Source of the DNA: an uncultured Clostridia bacterium | GTDB taxonomy: Bacteria > Bacillota > Clostridia > Peptostreptococcales > Anaerovoracaceae | DNA: 34,146 nt | Direction of reading: 5' to 3' | Assembly: GCA_945644815.1 (NCBI GenBank) | Contig: CALZFA010000004.1 | Location: 1-34,146 of the forward strand | In this document: positions 6 to 10,660 of the stretch, piece by piece | Layout: every line of letters starts with the position of its first letter | Numbering within the stretch: the stretch's first letter is position 1 | Translations under genes and position numbers: made by a program | The notes under the pieces: generated by a model | Told to the model about the DNA's origin: nothing | The model's input: the letters and a program-made list of their open reading frames with translations, nothing else | The model's database searches: none

Positions 6-770
6 TTAACCGAATCTTCCGGTGATATAGTCTTCCGTCCTCTTATCCTCAGGGAAGGAGAACAGCTTTTCTGTATCTGCATACTCGATAACCTCTCCCA
101 GAAGGAAAAAAGCGGTCTTGTCGGAAATCCTGGCAGCCTGCTGCATATTGTGGGTTACCATAACTATAGTATACTTGTTTTTAAGCTCCGCCGCAAGGTC
201 TTCGATCTTAGATGTGGAAATGGGGTCCAGGGCAGAAGTCGGTTCATCCATCAGAAGCACCTCCGGCTCCACGGCCAGAGCCCGAGCTATGCAAAGCCTC
301 TGCTGCTGTCCTCCCGAAAGTCCCATGGCACTGTCCTTAAGCCGGTCTTTGACCTCATCCCAGATGGCCGCCCCTCGAAGAGAATTCTCCACAATTTCAT
401 CAAGTCGCACCCTGCTGCGCACTCCATGGGTTCTGGGTCCGTACGCGATGTTGTCATAAATACTCATTGGAAATGGATTGGGTTTCTGGAACACCATTCC
501 TACCCGCTTTCTCAGATTATTTATGTCAACATCTCCGTAAATATTCTGTCCGTCAAGCCTGATGTCGCCGGTAATTCTGCATCCCTCCACCAGATCATTC
601 ATTCTGTTAAGTGACTTGAGGAGCGTGGATTTGCCGCAGCCGGAAGGACCGATAAAGGCAGTAATTCTGTTTTCGGGAATGTCCAGATTTATACCTTTAA
701 GTGCCTGAAAATCCCCGTAAAACAGATTCATATCATGTATTGTCATCTTATCCATTTTTCTTTTCTCCAT
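6..770 (-). CDS. pstB: Phosphate ABC transporter ATP-binding protein PstB
   Basis: Walker [10 protein letters not shown], signature LSGGQQQR, Walker [13 protein letters not shown]; lies downstream of pstA/pstC/pstS in the same orientation. Confidence 0.97.
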
Positions 771-806
771 ATGACCAAAATCCAGTAATAAACTCTATAT
801 GTCATA

Positions 807-1679
807 TTATTTGTTTGTAAGGCGCTTTGCCACTGCTGCCGAAAGAGCATTTATCAATATTACCACAACCAGCAGCACCACTGCCACGGCATAGGCCTGA
901 TCTGTGTACCTGCCCTCATTGAGCAAAGTATAAAGGTGCACGGAAAGGGTGCTCGCCGATGAAAACAGGCTCTTTGCCGCCACCGGGTTGGTTCCAGAAG
1001 TAAATATCAGCGCCGCCGATTCTCCCACAATCCTTCCTATTGCCAGAATTACTCCGGAGAGTATTCCCGGCACAGCAGACGGAAGAACGATTTTAAAAAC
1101 TGTCCGAAGTTTTCCCGCTCCCAGTCCGAAGCTTCCCTCCCGGAAAGAATCCGGAACGGCCATAAGGGCTTCCTCTGTGGTTCTCATTATTAACGGGAGT
1201 ATCATTATAGCCATGGTTATTACCCCGGAAAGGAGGGTGAAACTCCAGCCCAGAGTTATTACGAAGACTATATATCCGAAGAGTCCGTATACAATGGACG
1301 GAATTCCCGAAAGGGTTTCCGCCGTAATTCTGATGACCTTAACCAGCTTGTTTCCTCTCTTTGAATATTCCACCAAATATATAGCGGCAAAAGCTCCTAT
1401 GGGCACCGCCAAAAGCAGAGTCAGGACTATCATAATCAGCGTATTGATAATAGCCGGCATCATGGACTGGTTTTCTGCGTTGAAGTCCCATGCGAAAAGA
1501 CCCGGCAAAGTCAGATTTGGCACTCCGTGATAGAGTATATATCCTATGAGAAAAAGCACCACCCCCGCGGTTATCAGCGCGCTGAGGCACACCGCCGCAT
1601 AAATAATCAGCGACAGAGGCTGATGCCTGTAGTTTTTTATTTTTTGTCTCAAAGTCTGTCTGTTAATGTATTCCATCAT
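807..1679 (-). CDS. pstA: Phosphate ABC transporter permease PstA
   Basis: Multi-TM permease, IYLVEYSKRG, GIPSIVYGLFG, EEALMAVPDSFREGSFGLGAGKLRTVFKIVLPSA; 4-bp overlap with pstC. Confidence 0.96.
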   Translation of the reverse strand: MMEYINRQTLRQKIKNYRHQPLSLIIYAAVCLSALITAGVVLFLIGYILYHGVPNLTLPGLFAWDFNAENQSMMPAIINTLIMIVLTLLLAVPIGAFAAIYLVEYSKRGNKLVKVIRITAETLSGIPSIVYGLFGYIVFVITLGWSFTLLSGVITMAIMILPLIMRTTEEALMAVPDSFREGSFGLGAGKLRTVFKIVLPSAVPGILSGVILAIGRIVGESAALIFTSGTNPVAAKSLFSSASTLSVHLYTLLNEGRYTDQAYAVAVVLLVVVILINALSAAVAKRLTNK

Positions 1680-2524
1680 TTATTCCCCCTTTTCAGAAGA
1701 GAGAAAGAAATATTTATTATGAGTATAAATACGAAAAGCACCACTGCAGTGGCTATGAGTGCCTCCCTGTGAAGCCCCTCTGCATATCCCATCTCAATGA
1801 TTACATTGGCGGTCATGGTTCTCACTCCGGAAAGAATTGAGTCCGGCAGAATGGGCTGGTTTCCTGCCACCATTGAAACAGCCATGGTTTCTCCTATGGC
1901 TCTTCCTATGCCCAAGACCACTCCCGCCATTATGCCTGATTTTGCTGCGGGAAGGGTGGCAAAGAAAACACTTCGCTCGTGAGTTGCACCCAAAGCCAGT
2001 GAACCCTCATAATAACTTTCAGGTACAGCTCTGATGGCCGCCTCGGAAACGCTGACAATGGTGGGGAGAATCATTATTGCAAGCATTATGGATGCCGAGA
2101 GAATTCCCTTTCCGCTGGTTCCGGTGAGTGTCTGTACCACCGGCACAATAACCATCAAGGCGAAGAATCCGTAAACGATTGACGGTATTCCTGCCAGCAG
2201 ATCTACTGCCGGCTTCATTATTCTGTAAATACCGGATGGACAAAACTTTGCCATAAATACGGCGCAGAGAAGCCCAACCGGCACACCTATAATAATTGCT
2301 CCTGCTGTAACATAAATGCTGCCTACAATCATAGGGAAAATTCCGAATTGTCCTTCAAGAGGCTTCCATACCGTACCTGTCAGAAAATCGAGTACCCCTA
2401 TTTCCCCTATGGCAGGAAAACCCTGCTCAAAGAGAAAGAAGCATATTACTATGACTGCAAAAATTGATACTGTAGCCGACAACGTAAACACTAATTTCAT
2501 TGTTTTTTCAGAAAAAATGTTCAT
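1676..2524 (-). CDS. pstC: Phosphate ABC transporter permease PstC
   Basis: Multi-TM permease, GIPSIVYGFFALMVIVP, AIRAVPESYYEGSLALGATHERSVFFATLPAA. Confidence 0.96.
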   Translation of the reverse strand: MNIFSEKTMKLVFTLSATVSIFAVIVICFFLFEQGFPAIGEIGVLDFLTGTVWKPLEGQFGIFPMIVGSIYVTAGAIIIGVPVGLLCAVFMAKFCPSGIYRIMKPAVDLLAGIPSIVYGFFALMVIVPVVQTLTGTSGKGILSASIMLAIMILPTIVSVSEAAIRAVPESYYEGSLALGATHERSVFFATLPAAKSGIMAGVVLGIGRAIGETMAVSMVAGNQPILPDSILSGVRTMTANVIIEMGYAEGLHREALIATAVVLFVFILIINISFSLLKRGNK

Positions 2525-2572
2525 TTTTTTACCCGCCGTTTTTTTACCTGCTGATTCTTTATCCGCAATGCT

Positions 2573-3451
2573 TTACCACTCAGTCACTTCACCTGTAAAT
2601 ATCTGTCTGATCTGCTCTGAAGTCAGGTCTTCTGTCGTATTTTCCTTGTTTACTATAACCGCGATACCATCCATGGCAATGGTTTCTCCTTTCACACCCT
2701 TTGCCAGTTCTTCATCCTTCAGTTCTCTTGATGACATCCCCAGATTGACAGCCCCTTCAATAGTTGAGGTGATTCCTGCACCGGAACCTGTCTGCTGAAT
2801 TTCAATTTCAACCTCCGGATTAATAGCTTTATATGCATCAGCCAGCTTCTGCATTACAGGTGCTACCGATGTTGAACCGCCCACTGAAATTTTCCCTTTA
2901 AGGCCGCTTCTGGTTTCATATGCCTTAGCTTCGTTCTTTACAGAGATGCACCCGTCTTCTTCAATAATAGTCTGACCTTCCTTACTCATAATAAAGGCGA
3001 TAAAGTCTTTTGTAAGTTCATCTGTCTTCTTTCCCGTAACTACCAGGAAAGGTCTCGACACCGGATATACTCCTGCCTTAATGTTTTCTACTGTTGGTTC
3101 AACACCATCAACCTTTATTGCCTTTACTGAATCGTCCATGGACGCCAGAGAAATGTAACCGATGGCGTTTTTGTTCCCTGATACTGTTGCCATCACTACA
3201 GATGTGCTTTGTGAAATTTCTGCCTTTGGAGTAGTATTATCCACATCACCCGCCATGATTCCCATTAGTTCTGTAAATGCCCCTCTGGTGCCGGAACCAT
3301 CCTCTCTTGATACAACTGTTATGGGGTTGCCGCTCTGATCCTGTCCATTGGTCTTATTGCCTCCACAGGCTGTCATGGCAAATACCATGGTAAGAGCCAG
3401 TGCTGATGCCGCAATCTTCTTTATTCCGTTCATAATCTTATTCTTTTTCAT
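2573..3451 (-). CDS. pstS: Phosphate-binding lipoprotein PstS with permuted half order
   Basis: Lipoprotein signal (LTMVFAMTACGG) and PstS motifs SREDGSGTRGAF and GGSTSVAPVMQKLADAY; the usual C-terminal half precedes the usual N-terminal half. Confidence 0.93.
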   Translation of the reverse strand: MKKNKIMNGIKKIAASALALTMVFAMTACGGNKTNGQDQSGNPITVVSREDGSGTRGAFTELMGIMAGDVDNTTPKAEISQSTSVVMATVSGNKNAIGYISLASMDDSVKAIKVDGVEPTVENIKAGVYPVSRPFLVVTGKKTDELTKDFIAFIMSKEGQTIIEEDGCISVKNEAKAYETRSGLKGKISVGGSTSVAPVMQKLADAYKAINPEVEIEIQQTGSGAGITSTIEGAVNLGMSSRELKDEELAKGVKGETIAMDGIAVIVNKENTTEDLTSEQIRQIFTGEVTEW

Positions 3452-3901: not shown

Positions 3902-6607
3902 TTATTCTGTCAAAGCTTTCTCAAATGGCCTGTTTTTTTTCAGTTTGACTTTGCAATCCGACAATCTTGCTCGTATTTCCTCGGATACACCGGTAACTTC
4001 CGCATGGAATTCTCTTGCCGACATGCGGCGTGCGCCGTCTCCCAAGGCTGCCATCTGTACCGGTCTGTCCGATGTAACTACTGCCACATCGTATTTGCGC
4101 CCCATCTCATAAACAGTCTTTTCTATAAACCTGTCGGCTGTCTCCGCTTCCTTGGTATAGACTACCTTTATTTCTCCATAGTCCATCCTGGTGCCCGGAT
4201 TTCCGACCACCTTATATCCATCAAAAACCACCACCATGTCGGCTTTAGTATAGCCCTGGTAGTTTCCCAGAATATCCAGAAAAGCCTCTCTGGCCGAATC
4301 AAGGTTTACCGCAGCAAGCTCCTTAAGCTCATCCCAGGCAAAGATTACATTGTATCCGTCTATTACCAGGAAAGGCTGTCCATTGCCCGTCTCATGCTTC
4401 CATTTAGGCTGCGGAAAAGTATCAGATCTGCCTGCAGCTTTGGAGTGGGTAGCTTTGCTCAAAGCTTCTTTTCGCAGAGCTTCATCACGCTTGCTTTTGC
4501 CGTAGGTCCTTTCAAATATAGCCAGAAGTTCTTTTTCCCCTGCCGCAGAAAGCTTTTCTCTGTCTGTGTTGCTTCCGTCTTTGATGCCGTCTTGCAGCAG
4601 AGCTCCGCCATAAGTGCCTGTCCTGTCGCTCCGCCTGATGAAGTGCCCGTTCTCAATAATGTATCCGCTGTCCACATGAGCCATTTCATCAACCTGCTTC
4701 CAGTCCACATATTCTGCTGCGCCGCGGCTGCAGAACACAGAACCTGTAGGGTTTTCAAGATCTGCCTCAGGTACATAGGCGCTGTTCGCCACAACTTCAT
4801 CCGCATTATGGCAAGGCCTGAATCCGCACAAAGCAGCTTCAAACCTGCCCTCACCTTTTGTATATGCGCTTACTTCTCTCTGGTAGCCCTTAAGAGTGGC
4901 AACAGGTCCCTCTCCTTCAATAACGTTGTTCATCATTCCATCTATTTCCGGAAGGCCACAGGAAGCCCCCAATCTCTGCATGTCGGACATGGCTCTCCCC
5001 ACACAGTCCTGAGGCACCTTAAGAGAAAAGCTGTAGAAAGGTTCCAGCAGCACGCTTTTCGCCTTTCTGAGCCCCTGACGCACAGCCCTGTACGTGGCCT
5101 GCCTGAAATCTCCGCCTTCCGTGTGCTTGAGATGAGCCCTGCCTGCCAGTATGCTGATCTTCATATCGGTTATCTCCGAGCCGGTGAGCACGCCTGGAAA
5201 AGGTCTCTCCCCAAGGTGAGCAAGTATAAGACGCTGCCAGTTTCTGTCAAGGCTTTCTTCGCTGCACAGGCTGCCGATTACAAGTCCGCTTCCCGGAGGC
5301 AAAGGCTCCAGCAGCAGCTGGACCTCAGCATAGTGACGCAGGGGCTCGTAGTGACCTATACCGATTACGGGCTCTGCTATAGTCTCCTTATATATTATGC
5401 TGCTTTCGCCAAAGGAAACATCTTCGCCGAATCTGTCCTTTATGCGAGTTTTCAGAATTTCCTCCTCCAGCTCACCCATTATCTGAACATGGATTTCTTT
5501 AACTTCTTCTTTCCATAATACGCGCATAGTAGGGTCTTCTTCTTCAAGCTGCCGGAGTTTAGAAAGAAAAACCACAGGATCAGTGTCAGGTGACATGATT
5601 ATCCTCGACGTTATCGCGGGAAGAAGCAAGGGTTTTATGTCTTCACTTTGAGCTTCCTCTCCCAGGCCCTGTCCGGCATATGTCCCTGTCAGCCCTGTAA
5701 CTGCGCAGACGGTTCCCGCCTCTGCTTCACCGGTCATTGTAAAGCTGTCACCGGAATAAAGTCGTATCTGCTCTGCTTTTTCCTCTCTTCCGCCGCAGTT
5801 CAAAAGCATTTTGCTCCTGAGCCTTCCCCCCGTGATCCTCATGTGACTAAGCCTGTTTCCCTGCTTGTCCCTGCTGATCTTATATACTCTTGCTCCGAAC
5901 TCTTCGCTGTATTGTTTAGCCCGAGTATATCTGTCAAAACACCGGAGAAACTCTTTTACACCCTCCAGTTTAAGAGCGGAGCCGAAGATGACAGGAAACA
6001 GCTGTCTGCCCTCAACAGCATCGGTAATGGTTTTGTCACTGATACTTCCGCCATTGAGATATTCCTCCATAAGTTCCTCGCTTGCCATGGCTGTCTCATC
6101 CTCGTTTAGACTGCCGTCGGTCTTTGCTGTGGCAAAGCTGTCCCCAAAAGTATCTGTCAGTTCCTTCATCAGGTTTTCCCGGTCAGTCCCGGGCCTATCC
6201 ATTTTGTTTACAAATACAAAAACCGGCAGTCCTCGATCTTCCAGCAGCTTCCACAAAGTTCTGGTGTGGGCCTGAACACCGTCGGTGCCGCTTACCACCA
6301 ATACTGCATAATCCAGAACCTGCAATGTCCTCTCCATTTCAGCGCTGAAATCAGCGTGGCCCGGCGTATCCAGCAAAGTGACCTGCTTTTCTCCCAGCAC
6401 AAAACGAGCCTCCTTGGAAAATACGGTTATACCGCGGGCTCGTTCTACTTGTACGTTATCAAGAAAGGCATCTTTGTGATCAACCCTGCCCAGCTGCCTT
6501 ATGGCTCCTGTCAGGTACAGTATTGCCTCCGATAAGGTTGTCTTTCCTGCATCCACATGGGCTAATATGCCCATAGTCAGGGGGTTAGGTCTGTTGTCCT
6601 TCTTCAT
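3902..6607 (-). CDS. Tet(M)-like/EF-G-family translational GTPase fused to C-terminal Rae1/YacP-type NYN endonuclease domain
   Basis: GTPase motifs AHVDAGKTT, RGIT, DTPGH, NKMD with Tet(M)-like collinearity; the last ~157 aa (LVIDGYNVIFAW..NYQGYT..VVVFD..TKEAETADRFIEK..VVTSD..GARRMSARE) match the Rae1/YacP pattern. ORF track starts at TTG 6679; the ATG at 6607 looks more likely. Confidence 0.9.
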   Translation of the reverse strand: MKKDNRPNPLTMGILAHVDAGKTTLSEAILYLTGAIRQLGRVDHKDAFLDNVQVERARGITVFSKEARFVLGEKQVTLLDTPGHADFSAEMERTLQVLDYAVLVVSGTDGVQAHTRTLWKLLEDRGLPVFVFVNKMDRPGTDRENLMKELTDTFGDSFATAKTDGSLNEDETAMASEELMEEYLNGGSISDKTITDAVEGRQLFPVIFGSALKLEGVKEFLRCFDRYTRAKQYSEEFGARVYKISRDKQGNRLSHMRITGGRLRSKMLLNCGGREEKAEQIRLYSGDSFTMTGEAEAGTVCAVTGLTGTYAGQGLGEEAQSEDIKPLLLPAITSRIIMSPDTDPVVFLSKLRQLEEEDPTMRVLWKEEVKEIHVQIMGELEEEILKTRIKDRFGEDVSFGESSIIYKETIAEPVIGIGHYEPLRHYAEVQLLLEPLPPGSGLVIGSLCSEESLDRNWQRLILAHLGERPFPGVLTGSEITDMKISILAGRAHLKHTEGGDFRQATYRAVRQGLRKAKSVLLEPFYSFSLKVPQDCVGRAMSDMQRLGASCGLPEIDGMMNNVIEGEGPVATLKGYQREVSAYTKGEGRFEAALCGFRPCHNADEVVANSAYVPEADLENPTGSVFCSRGAAEYVDWKQVDEMAHVDSGYIIENGHFIRRSDRTGTYGGALLQDGIKDGSNTDREKLSAAGEKELLAIFERTYGKSKRDEALRKEALSKATHSKAAGRSDTFPQPKWKHETGNGQPFLVIDGYNVIFAWDELKELAAVNLDSAREAFLDILGNYQGYTKADMVVVFDGYKVVGNPGTRMDYGEIKVVYTKEAETADRFIEKTVYEMGRKYDVAVVTSDRPVQMAALGDGARRMSAREFHAEVTGVSEEIRARLSDCKVKLKKNRPFEKALTE

Positions 6608-6741
6608 AATTTGTATTATATATAAAAAAACATAAAAAGTCGACCCGATTTTTATCTTATTGCCCATGTTGGTGTGCAATTCAGGCTTTGTTTTGGTGTC
6701 TTATCCGCAGAAGTAAACCTATATTTTCTATTTGCAATGGT

Positions 6742-8142
6742 TTATAATTCCCTGATCTTATCCGCCAGCCTTTCGGCATCTTCCCGACTATGAGTGATGA
6801 GGATTACAGTCCTGCCCTCGGTCTCACGCTTCCACAGTCTGTCAATAATTCTATCCTTCAGAGAACCATCCAGTCCACGGAAAGGCTCATCCAATATCAC
6901 CAGCGCTCCACCTGCAGCAAAGGTTCTCGCCAAAGCAGCTCTATGACGCTGACCCCCGGACAATTCACCGGGAAGTTTCCAAAGCTCAGTTTCGATTTCG
7001 AGCTGTCCTGCCAGATCCCTGATTCTTTCCGCATTTCCACCGCCTATGGCGATATTATCATAAATATTCAGCCAGGGCAGCAATCTGTCCTCCTGAAACA
7101 GAAAAGAAATCTTCCCCGCAAAAGCTTCTGTTTTCCCTATCGCCATTTTCCCTTCATCCTCAATGAAAACTCTTCCCGACTCTGCAGCTTCAAGCCCTGC
7201 GATAATTCGTGCGAGGGTAGTTTTGCCCTGACCTGAAGATCCCATGAGTGCCGTAACTTTTCCGGCCTCAAAGGTCATGTTCACATCGTCTAATACCCTT
7301 TTACCCTCAAAGGCCTTGGTCAAATGAGACACCTCAATGCCGGTTGCAGCCGGCTGCTGCGGCAAGTTTTTGACACCGTGAGCATGGAGTCTGCTGCCCT
7401 CATATCCTTTCCATTCAATGCGTCTCATACCAAGGTTTATCAGTTTCTCAAAGGCCATGCTGAGTACTACGATTACAAAAATATACGCAAATAGATCAGC
7501 TGTCTCCAGATAATACTTCGCGTTTATCATTTCATAGCCCAGAGAATATTTCGGTATTGAAAGTACTTCTGCAGCCACTACCGCCTTCCAGCTGAGTCCT
7601 GCAGTGAGACTGATTGCCGCCTTTATTTGCGGCAAAAGGCCGGGACCGTAAATATACTTCACGATTTCGCCTCTGCTCAGGCGACATATTTTTCCCACTT
7701 CCGGGTACGCTGAAGGCATGGCGTCCAGCCCTTCCAGAATATTGGTGTATACTATAGGAAAACACATAAAAAAGCACACTGTTACCGCAACCCAGTCGGA
7801 TTCTGCCAGCAATATAACATAGATTATGATGGCCATGACGGGGACAGCTTTAAAAAATCCCACAGGCAGGCTCAAAATGTTTCTAACCTCATCATACCTG
7901 AAGGAGAGAGCCGCCGCCGGAATTCCCGCTGCAAAAGAAACGGCCATTGCAACAAGGCACCTTGCCGCAGTCCAACCTATGTCCATATAAAATTTACTCG
8001 TACCGGCCAACGCTGTCAGAGCAAAAAAAGCATCCGCAGGGTCCGGCAGCAGCAGCTTGTTTGAAACCAGCAGCGCTGCTGCCTGCCACACTGCCAGCCA
8101 AAACATGGCGGTAATAAATTTACTGTATTTTTTATTTCGCAT
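6742..8142 (-). CDS. Fused ABC transporter: SsuC-type permease + SsuB-type ATPase
   Basis: N-terminal half is a multi-TM binding-protein-dependent permease; C-terminal half has Walker A GSSGQGKTT, LSGGQRHRAALARTF, LVILDEPFRGLD. Confidence 0.9.
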   Translation of the reverse strand: MRNKKYSKFITAMFWLAVWQAAALLVSNKLLLPDPADAFFALTALAGTSKFYMDIGWTAARCLVAMAVSFAAGIPAAALSFRYDEVRNILSLPVGFFKAVPVMAIIIYVILLAESDWVAVTVCFFMCFPIVYTNILEGLDAMPSAYPEVGKICRLSRGEIVKYIYGPGLLPQIKAAISLTAGLSWKAVVAAEVLSIPKYSLGYEMINAKYYLETADLFAYIFVIVVLSMAFEKLINLGMRRIEWKGYEGSRLHAHGVKNLPQQPAATGIEVSHLTKAFEGKRVLDDVNMTFEAGKVTALMGSSGQGKTTLARIIAGLEAAESGRVFIEDEGKMAIGKTEAFAGKISFLFQEDRLLPWLNIYDNIAIGGGNAERIRDLAGQLEIETELWKLPGELSGGQRHRAALARTFAAGGALVILDEPFRGLDGSLKDRIIDRLWKRETEGRTVILITHSREDAERLADKIREL

Positions 8143-9142
8143 AATATAAATCGTCTGCCGGCAGTTTGCCTCCCACCGCCTGAGGGTTCATTTCAAACAA
8201 AGTCTCATTAAATATTCTGAGGATTTCGTTGCCCTCCTCAACCTTATTTCCTGTATAGAGCACAATATGACAATTAGGAATTGCAGCCTCAGCGATTTCA
8301 ATCTTCCCGATAAAGCCCTTTTCCACTATGATCTGAGCCGCTTCTTCAGGCACCCCGTTTACGAAATCAACGGATTCCCGCAGATCACTTAAAAGCACCC
8401 TAAGGTCATCGGTCCTTTCTTCCACAAAGGCCTTGCGTGCAACCAGCACTCCCATAGGCAGCTCCTGTCCTGTAGCATCTTTCCACAGGGTGTTCATGTC
8501 GAATACCTCTGCAACGCCTTCTTTGCCTGCGGCAAGAGCCGTTGATACAAACGGTTCAGGAATCATGGCGATGGTGCCTTCTTCACTGAGGAGCCTGGTA
8601 TTTACTTCTGAATGATTTGCAAGCCACTCCACCTGTACATCTTCGTAGAGCTTAAGGCCTGCGTCCTCTAAGACCTTCTGCAGCACATACTCCGGTGTGC
8701 CTCCCTGTCCGCTGGCAACGACGGTGCTGCCTTTAAGCTGAGAAACCTCTGCGACCTGGATATTGTTTCCAAGAATATGAAGTACTCCCAAAGCAATCGG
8801 GCTTATGGCTGTCACCTGTCCCTCCGTCTTATTGTAAAGCACTGCCGCCATGTTTGACGGAAGTGCAGCCACGTCAACCTCGCCCTTTACCAGCTTTGCC
8901 GTAATATCTGTAGGGCTTTGATACGTTTCCACTGCATATTTGTCAGTCATATCCATAAGCTGCACCATACCCATACCCGTCGGGCCGTTGAGAGCAGCCA
9001 CATTCACCGTTTTGCTTACCGTATCCGGCACATGGCTGTCATCGCCGCCGCAGCCTGTCAGCACCGCAAAAGTCATGAACACGGCAAGAACCGCTGCCGT
9101 AAGTCTTATGATGCCTCTCTCCTGAATTTTTCTTTTCTCCAT
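8132..9142 (-). CDS. ABC transporter substrate-binding lipoprotein, NMT1/SsuA-like
   Basis: Lipobox LTGCGG, NGPTGMGMVQLM, KGEVDVAALPSNMAAVLYNK; start region overlaps the fused permease-ATPase gene. Confidence 0.88.
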   Translation of the reverse strand: MEKRKIQERGIIRLTAAVLAVFMTFAVLTGCGGDDSHVPDTVSKTVNVAALNGPTGMGMVQLMDMTDKYAVETYQSPTDITAKLVKGEVDVAALPSNMAAVLYNKTEGQVTAISPIALGVLHILGNNIQVAEVSQLKGSTVVASGQGGTPEYVLQKVLEDAGLKLYEDVQVEWLANHSEVNTRLLSEEGTIAMIPEPFVSTALAAGKEGVAEVFDMNTLWKDATGQELPMGVLVARKAFVEERTDDLRVLLSDLRESVDFVNGVPEEAAQIIVEKGFIGKIEIAEAAIPNCHIVLYTGNKVEEGNEILRIFNETLFEMNPQAVGGKLPADDLYYAK

Positions 9143-9166: not shown

Positions 9167-9415
9167 TTATTTTTTTGAATAAACCGTTTTAGCACTGACT
9201 CCTTCCAAAGCACCCAGCTTTCCGGAAAGCGCACTGACCACATCCATAGGGCAGTCCATGGCCACGCTGATGATGGAAATATCTTTTTTAGGATATGGAA
9301 CCCCCATACGGCCTATGATATGCTGCCTGTAAAGATGAAGCAGAGAGTTTATCGCCTCAGCGGCATCAACATTTTCCACAATTATACTCACAACAGCTAC
9401 TCTTGTTTCTGCCAT
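9167..9415 (-). CDS. ACT-domain protein of the TM1266 / putative iron-only hydrogenase system regulator family
   Basis: MAETRVAVVSIIVENVDAAEAINSLLHLYRQHIIGRMGVPYPKKDISIISVAMDCPMDVVSALSGKLGALEGVSAKTVYSKK; SD GGAGGAGG upstream of the ATG at 9415 (ORF track start 9478 judged too long). Confidence 0.85.
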   Translation of the reverse strand: MAETRVAVVSIIVENVDAAEAINSLLHLYRQHIIGRMGVPYPKKDISIISVAMDCPMDVVSALSGKLGALEGVSAKTVYSKK

Positions 9416-9430
9416 CATTTCCTCCTCCAA

Positions 9431-9463
9431 CAAAAAAACGGTGCCGGCAAAAATACCGACACC
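9431..9463 (-). terminator. Intrinsic terminator hairpin immediately upstream of the SD of the TM1266-like gene
   Basis: Minus strand GGTGTCGG-TATTTTTG-CCGGCACC-GTTTTTTTG, 8-bp stem including one G-U pair, then T7. Confidence 0.85.
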
Positions 9464-9556
9464 TGTCCACAAATACAAATGCTGTCTGTATATGTTTCCT
9501 CAGCCTTTCCCCTCAGAAAACCTTCGGGCGTCAGTACCATCAAAACAATTATTTCA
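9452..9556 (-). ncRNA. Candidate cis-regulatory leader (riboswitch/attenuator-like)
   Basis: GGTACTGACGCC (9527-9538) can pair over 12 bp, including G-U pairs, with GGTGTCGGTATT (9452-9463), which contains the 5' arm of the terminator. Confidence 0.5.
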
Positions 9557-10660
9557 CTATTTATTATATTCCTCCGTATGACCCCTTTCAACCACATTTT
9601 CAGCTTTTTCTCCGGTATTTGGGGAAGCTTTTATCTGCGGCATAATATGATTTGCATCCGTAAGGAAAATATATATCATCAGGAATGCAATTGCAAAAAG
9701 TCCCATGGTTTCTACCCACAGTCCTCTGCTAAAGGTAACCGCTGCTATGCCCATAATGCCGCTGACGCTGTAAAGCATCAAAGTGGCTCTCCTCTGTCCG
9801 TATCCAAGCTTCATCAGTCTGTGATGAAGATGCCCCTTGTCCGCTTCCATAATGGGCCTTTTATTTATCACTCTTCTGAAAATAGCAAAAGCCGTATCAA
9901 AGATAGGTACTCCCAGGACCAGAACCGGTATAATAACCGCCACAATGGTAGCGCTTTTTACGGGCCCCAGAATGGAAAGGGCGGAAAGCATAAATCCCAG
10001 ATACAGCGACCCTCCGTCGCCCATAAAAATCTTGGCAGGATAAAAATTGTAAGGGAGAAATCCCAAGGCTCCGCCTGCCAGGGCCAGCATAGCCCCGCAG
10101 GCAAGATACATGCCGTGAATATAGGCTACATAAGCAATGCAAAGGGATGCAATGGCGGAGGTTCCCGCTGCCAGACCGTCTAAGCCGTCTATGAGATTTA
10201 CCGTGTTGGTTATTCCCACTATCCATATTATTGTTACGATAAAACAAACTGCCGTACCAAGCTCATTTCTTCCTTCTCCGAAGAAGTTGGATATAAACTC
10301 AATCCTCACATCGTATACATACATTAATATTGCAATTGCAATCTGTCCCAGGAACTTAACCTTGGCAGGCAGATTCTTAAGGTCATCGATTATTCCCAAA
10401 ATATAAATCAGCACTCCGCCGATTATGATAACCGGCACTTTTGGTTCTGAATGCATAAAAATAAGCATTGCTGCGGTAGTTCCAATGAAAATTGCCATTC
10501 CTCCGAACCTGGGCATGGAATGTGTATGCATCCTGCGTTCATCCTTAGGAACATCTATTGCTCCGATTTTAGGAGCGATTTTTATAGCAAGGGGGGTAGC
10601 CGCCAGCGAGAGGAAAAAAGCTACGGCAAATACAGCCCATAAGATATTATACATTTTCAT
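9557..10660 (-). CDS. Undecaprenyl-phosphate GlcNAc-1-phosphate transferase (TagO/WecA, MraY family)
   Basis: [66 protein letters not shown]. Confidence 0.93.
9563..9591 (-). promoter_or_regulatory. SigA-type promoter for the leader and TM1266/ABC operon, inside the 3' end of the upstream gene
   Basis: Minus strand TTGAAA-N17-TATAAT. Confidence 0.6.

Follow-up and report, generated by a model that had tools for sequence, protein, structure and literature searches.

A stretch of 34,146 nucleotides from an uncultured Clostridia bacterium, referred to here as the window, carries on its minus strand a leader in front of a short operon for a TM1266-like protein and an ABC importer. The questions raised by this locus are what kind of RNA the leader is, which genes it controls and to which signal it would respond. 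The leader is a cis-regulatory RNA class absent from Rfam. It is fairly probable that it works as a metabolite-sensing attenuator of a regulon for the supply of the [FeFe]-hydrogenase H-cluster, in which the importer would salvage an H-cluster precursor.

All features of the window described below lie on the minus strand. A promoter TTGAAA-N17-TATAAT had been claimed in the original prediction, and a sigma-A type promoter of this sequence is present at 9563..9591 (read from 9591 to 9563), within the 3' end of the tagO-like gene. It matches the consensus at 11 of 12 positions, while shuffles average 0.9 promoter-like sites with any quality counted, and equivalents occupy its position in the nearest relatives (TTGAAA-N17-TAAAAT or TAATAT in L005, L050 and L052). 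The terminator said to abut the Shine-Dalgarno sequence of the TM1266-like gene was also found. This intrinsic terminator (9432..9463) consists of a stem at 9463-9440 and a T7 tract at 9438-9432, directly before the Shine-Dalgarno sequence GGAGGAGG (9421..9428), which is followed by the ATG at 9415. Folding z-scores of the leader are -3.0 and -3.4, and at full length the terminator fold is favoured (-36.1 kcal/mol).

The first gene of the operon (9167..9415) encodes a TM1266-like protein of 82 aa, which scores 105.9 bits with TIGR03959 against a cut-off of 60.8 and has a solved relative in PDB 2nzc. Within the TM1266 family (TIGR03959, PDB 2nzc), this member is set apart by its place at the start of an importer operon, in a genome where HydE, HydF and HydG were not detected. 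It is followed by the lipoprotein substrate-binding protein (SBP) of the ABC importer (8132..9142), to which profile and structure matches assign an NMT1/SsuA-like fold, and by a fused ABC permease and ATPase (6742..8142), which are separate genes in some relatives. The structure of the SBP was predicted with a pLDDT of 92.6, and the model is closest to BDI_1369 (3hn0) and also close to SsuA, TauA, Thi5 and PqqT. The predicted fold and the lipoprotein importer architecture are shared with these proteins, but identity is at most 23%, and the window importer is genetically linked to [FeFe]-hydrogenase. The closest solved relatives of the importer bind sulfonates, pyrimidines or PQQ, and none binds an organometallic compound. 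An assignment of the SBP to the aliphatic sulfonate family SsuA (TIGR01728) was rejected at 38 bits against a cut-off of 163.5, with only the fold in common. A contig search with the importer SBP matched close relatives only.

The conserved part of the window leader is 9539-9501, inside a covariance-model match at 9495..9546 (models R1/R2/R3, E 8.5e-16 to 5.9e-13). The core is a hairpin of about 40 nt with an invariant internal loop, GU[A/U]CUGA...AAGGC, and relatives of the operon have in common a 35-nt block, GUACUGANNCCC[G/A]AAGG-N4-5-CUGNGGGGNAAGGC. According to comparative pair counts, helix P1 is formed by U9539, G9538 and G9537 (9537..9539) with C9503, U9502 and G9501 (9501..9503); its middle pair is UA in 21, CG in 18, GU in 8 and AU in 3 relatives, and its closing pair is GC in 51/57. 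The internal loop has an invariant 5' strand, UACUGA (9531..9536; U[A/U]CUGA in relatives), and a 3' strand, AAAGG (9504..9508), of which AAGG is nearly invariant and is the antiterminator target in most relatives. In P2, CCC (9526..9528) pairs with GGG (9512-9510), and this helix is replaced by UGC/GCA in L083, CAC/GUG in L084 and L090, UAC/GUA in L088, CCG/CGG in L089 and GCG/CGC in L092. The comparison also places a 2x2 purine loop (G9525 A9524 / G9514 A9513), P3 and the apical loop at 9513..9525; P3 comprises the pairs A9523-U9515 and G9522-C9516 (A-U 38 and G-C 21 in relatives), and the apical loop is 9521-9517. The 2x2 loop shows a concerted non-canonical change from GA/GA to AA/GC (columns 25-26 and 57-58 of alignment A6, between P2 and P3). 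This comparatively supported arrangement of P1, P2 (CCC/GGG), the 2x2 RA/GR loop and P3 (AG/CU) replaces a helix GTTTTC/GGAAAC that had been proposed earlier, and a second proposed helix, ACATATACA/TGTATTTGT, falls in a linker without conservation in relatives.

Covarying helices in this structured core of the 5' leader were evaluated on 60 distinct sequences. Double-sided changes were found in 8/8 core pairs, 90.8% of the cells were paired (shuffled 75.9 +/- 1.1), and the covariation score was 0.415 (shuffled 0.155 +/- 0.015; slid controls at most 0.163), values to be read with the fact that alignment A6 was fitted to the covariance-model structure, which favours that structure. The first structure was taken from a MAFFT alignment. 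The inner P2/P3 hairpin is also recovered by plain folding, and the stability of the P2/P3 segment is better than the shuffled mean in 61/63.

The RNA is not restricted to the window. It was found in about 70 genomes belonging to many families of the phylum, so that the conservation and covariation of the leader, on which the original prediction depended, are present. Of 349 genomes of the family, 16 contain an exact sequence pattern of the leader, none of them more than once, and a reversed control never matched. Three covariance models, built stepwise and without gene information, matched in 15/297 genomes of the order, 47/349 of the family, 24/391 of the class and 7/249 of the phylum; each of these counts includes the window's genome, and those for the family and class take E up to 0.05 and so contain a few false matches. 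Weak model matches in L101, L102, L104 and L119-L123 (E about 0.02-0.05) were false or within coding sequence and were excluded. The regulon count below leaves out eight clearly false matches, all with E > 0.02.

The leader had not been recognised in the original prediction as TPP, ZTP, THF, FMN, fluoride, guanidine or cobalamin class, and the comparison with Rfam agrees with this. Rfam 15 (4227 families) gave no gathering-score match in the window leader or in 40 relative loci, and the single Rfam match among the relative loci was a tRNA elsewhere in L126. The best sub-threshold matches of the window leader were the PyrR binding site RF00515 (18.1 bits, threshold 54) and the L20 leader RF00558 (14.5 bits, threshold 58.7). 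Both are attenuators with an antiterminator and a terminator, as here; both matched mainly on the terminator and were rejected. The molybdenum/tungsten cofactor RNAs (RF01055 and relatives) likewise accompany genes of anaerobes that serve a redox metal cofactor, but the present RNA has no Rfam match, other genes and a much smaller core (about 40 nt). No earlier description of the leader RNA was found in the literature searched, with subscription papers and preprints outside its scope; because this coverage is incomplete, priority is claimed neither for the RNA nor for the salvage system.

In all 68 copies with enough downstream sequence, the next gene is TM1266, hydE, hydG or the SBP of one importer family, a regulon coherent with one metabolite. 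Where TM1266 comes next, the arrangements are TM1266-hydE (22 copies), TM1266-importer (17), TM1266 then hydG (11) and TM1266 alone (2); elsewhere the RNA directly precedes hydE (7), hydG with or without a hydE cross-match (6) or the SBP (3). The operon is hydE-hydG-hydF in L141 and L142 and TM1266-hydE-hydG in L130; in the window's genus and relatives, it consists of TM1266 and the importer, with its SBP and fused permease-ATPase. This gene context points to the H-cluster of [FeFe]-hydrogenase; the ligands suggested at first, namely thiamine/HMP, sulfonates and nucleobases, have no support. Riboswitches such as those of the TPP and FMN classes regulate biosynthesis in one species and uptake through an importer in another. 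The leader shares with these classes a common plan, in which one leader stands before a biosynthetic operon or an importer with a terminator/antiterminator platform and OFF logic, but it matches no Rfam family in sequence or structure, and its regulon is that of H-cluster assembly. Such a plan is how cofactor riboswitches are arranged.

The frequent presence of TM1266 allows another explanation, in which the hairpin is a protein site, most likely for TM1266 itself, which would control its own operon through feedback, with the terminator either stabilised or blocked. TM1266 has a small ferredoxin-like fold and is named a putative regulator of the hydrogenase system, and protein targets are typically small irregular hairpins. 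It is encoded directly after the RNA in 52/68 readable copies, and strict dependence on it in cis was rejected, as the next gene is not TM1266 in the other 16/68. Elsewhere in the genome, TM1266 was found in 12/15 tested genomes whose RNA precedes hydE, hydG or the importer without TM1266. Because TM1266 is present in nearly all genomes with the RNA, a protein-dependent mechanism stays the main rival. It is nevertheless rather unlikely: in G048 (98% complete) the RNA precedes hydG and TM1266 is absent, as it is in G100 and G317, though these are just 71-74% complete, and the invariant bases are part of a large internal loop, a feature shared with aptamers for small molecules.

A riboswitch could also respond to a more general signal. 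HydE and HydG use SAM, tyrosine, cysteine and iron, and the fold family of the importer binds diverse small molecules. Both points would suit a sensor of Fe2+, SAM or 5'-deoxyadenosine, tyrosine or cysteine, with this compound, or some other nutrient, as the substrate of the importer. If the RNA sensed iron, SAM or an amino acid, it would also be expected on the genes for these compounds, but among the 68 readable copies the RNA was not seen on genes for iron, SAM or amino-acid uptake or synthesis. It is restricted to H-cluster genes and one importer family, which makes a general signal unlikely. The preferred reading, in which the signal is a compound of H-cluster supply, gains from the genomes in which the importer occurs.

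A review states that every microorganism with [FeFe]-hydrogenase was found to have HydE, HydF and HydG (PMC6212873). Fifteen genomes with the window-type importer were searched for these maturases, including one (G163) in which the RNA itself was not detected. HydE and HydG above the cut-off were found in 0/15, and HydF in 1/15, namely G091, which lacks HydE and HydG. The H-cluster domain of [FeFe]-hydrogenase is present in 15/15, and both hydrogenases of the window's genome keep the cluster motifs TSC[C/S]PGW, MPCTAKK and EIMACPGGC. The combination proposed for salvage, with hydrogenase and importer present and maturases absent, is thus found, with HydF retained in G091. Importer operons without detected RNA adjoin hydrogenase genes as well, for a large subunit in L162 and for NuoE/NuoF-like subunits in L156 and L168. 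In L162, the gene at 151-1306 (+) encodes an [FeFe]-hydrogenase that contains both large and small subunit domains and lies just upstream of the importer operon, which has no detectable leader.

The apparent loss of maturases might instead reflect an assembly artefact or undetectable divergence, in which case the importer would have no role in H-cluster supply. The completeness of the window's genome is 85.8%, and one importer operon of G045 (L163) ends, directly after the importer ATPase, in a HydE-like radical SAM gene (2048-3025, reverse on the locus) that scores 191 bits against the cut-off of 254.6. Against this explanation, which appears improbable, eight of the 15 genomes reach a completeness of 92% or more and every one of these lacks HydE and HydG, true HydG proteins in relatives score about 880-920 bits in the same search, and the importer adjoins hydrogenase genes in G096 and G144/G175. 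The HydE-like radical SAM protein of G045 may act on the imported compound.

In a wider sample, genomes with the importer tend to lack HydE. HydE is absent in 24/33 genomes with the importer vs 3/18 without it (Fisher p = 2.8e-4), a comparison of 51 genomes of known status that are hand-picked and non-independent and include many incomplete MAGs. The swap between importer and maturases was seen twice within a genus, in g77 (G132 vs G077) and in g12 (G011 and G095 vs G144). The importer does not substitute for the maturases strictly one to one, because G062 holds both maturases and an RNA-controlled importer, and eight more genomes hold HydE together with an importer homologue. Both HydE and the importer are missing in G004, G083 and G136. 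Loss of the HydE/F/G maturases with retention of [FeFe]-hydrogenase is described for Giardia and Spironucleus barkhanus (PMC11437800). The window's organism resembles them in having a hydrogenase without these maturases, but the case is bacterial and comes with an RNA-controlled candidate supply route. Neither a bacterial importer replacing maturases nor bacterial H-cluster salvage was found in the literature searched.

The direction of control can be read from the way in which the terminator competes with the core. The 5' strand of the antiterminator, GGUACUGACGCC (9527..9538), overlaps the conserved core, and the 3' strand, GGUGUCGGUAUU (9452..9463), contains the 5' arm of the terminator. 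The 12-bp pairing with this arm that had been claimed is real: the complementarity of 9538-9527 with 9463-9452 scores 18 (shuffled-arm mean 9.1; reached in 0/100 shuffles), and the pairing is the MFE fold (-28.9 kcal/mol) of the leader without the terminator 3' arm. Almost every copy examined is followed by a predicted terminator, in a few cases a weak one, and two copies have none. Complementarity between the terminator arm and its own core averages 12.8, compared with 9.8 for shuffled arms and 11.7 for the cores of other copies, and GCCUU, which pairs with the conserved AAGGC, occurs in 24/58 arms vs 1.6 expected. The attacked strand of the core is the 3' AAAGGC in many lineages (L037-L039, L060-L063, L088, L096) and the 5' UACUGAC in the window's genus; the arm attacks P2/P3 in L090 and in L124, where the pairing spans 14 bp. 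A compensating pair is found in L086, with the core changed to AAGGG and the arm to CCCUU. As computed, the expression platform and the core are mutually exclusive.

In the comparative structure, the GUACUGA and CCC of the antiterminator lie in the local hairpin 9539-9501. It follows that a ligand-stabilised core would free the terminator arm and turn the operon off. In the lineages named above, the core is lost when the arm pairs with it, and stabilisation of the core would thus allow termination. The attack of GCCUU on the other core strand, AAGGC, in most relatives agrees with the same OFF direction. We thus infer an OFF switch, opposite to the ON direction first proposed. Of the original idea of a riboswitch-like attenuator, the transcription attenuator outside Rfam stands, whereas the layout of P1 and terminator in an ON switch does not, the 12-bp pairing being an antiterminator. 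An ON riboswitch, in which the ligand would stabilise the 12-bp pairing as P1 and block the terminator, is very improbable. This pairing is present in the window and its genus but lacks conservation as P1: in other genera, the partner of the terminator arm is the opposite strand of the core, and the covarying P1 and P2 use the same nucleotides locally.

The mechanism proposed here builds on the computed conservation and covariation, the regulon, the terminators, the overlap of antiterminator and core, and the loss of maturases with the hydrogenase kept. A folded core, to which a small molecule of H-cluster assembly is most probably bound, would let the terminator form, and the operon would be off. 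When the ligand is scarce, the core strand would pair with the terminator 5' arm and transcription would enter the operon. In maturase-bearing organisms, the RNA stands before (TM1266-)hydE/hydG(/hydF). In the window's organism, the maturases appear to have been lost, and the RNA stands before TM1266 and the ABC importer, whose role is most probably the salvage of an H-cluster precursor. The simplest compound common to both situations would be a product or intermediate of HydE/HydG that can also be imported. Direct sensing of a ligand, the identity of that ligand and the substrate of the importer are what we infer from these patterns. A more specific version is tentative: maturase-less bacteria could keep their [FeFe]-hydrogenases functional with an imported, diffusible organometallic H-cluster precursor that neighbours release, possibly a mononuclear Fe-CO-CN synthon or the [2Fe] subcluster, and the RNA would be a riboswitch for the same compound.

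The RNA joins maturase operons and an importer in one regulon, and the importer stands where bacterial maturases are missing. This suggests that bacteria with the importer in place of maturases obtain a preformed precursor of the hydrogenase iron centre from outside. A natural route that supplies a finished or half-finished H-cluster was not found in the literature searched. With this regulon, experiments can directly address whether the cofactor is salvaged, whether anaerobic communities cross-feed parts of the H-cluster and whether RNA senses such a compound. The leader also adds a new class of RNA, whose core is small and defined.

Two further observations concern the surroundings of the leader and the operon. 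In G191 (end of L050, start of L004), the contig ends just past the terminator, and repeat-like sequence, possibly an inserted element, lies between the leader and TM1266. At 3902-6679 (-) of the window, there is a gene for a 925-aa protein, in which an EF-G/tetracycline-protection-like translational GTPase (389 bits, under the cut-off of 775) is fused to a YacP-like NYN nuclease (PF05991), and a similar ORF of 912 aa follows the importer in L137.
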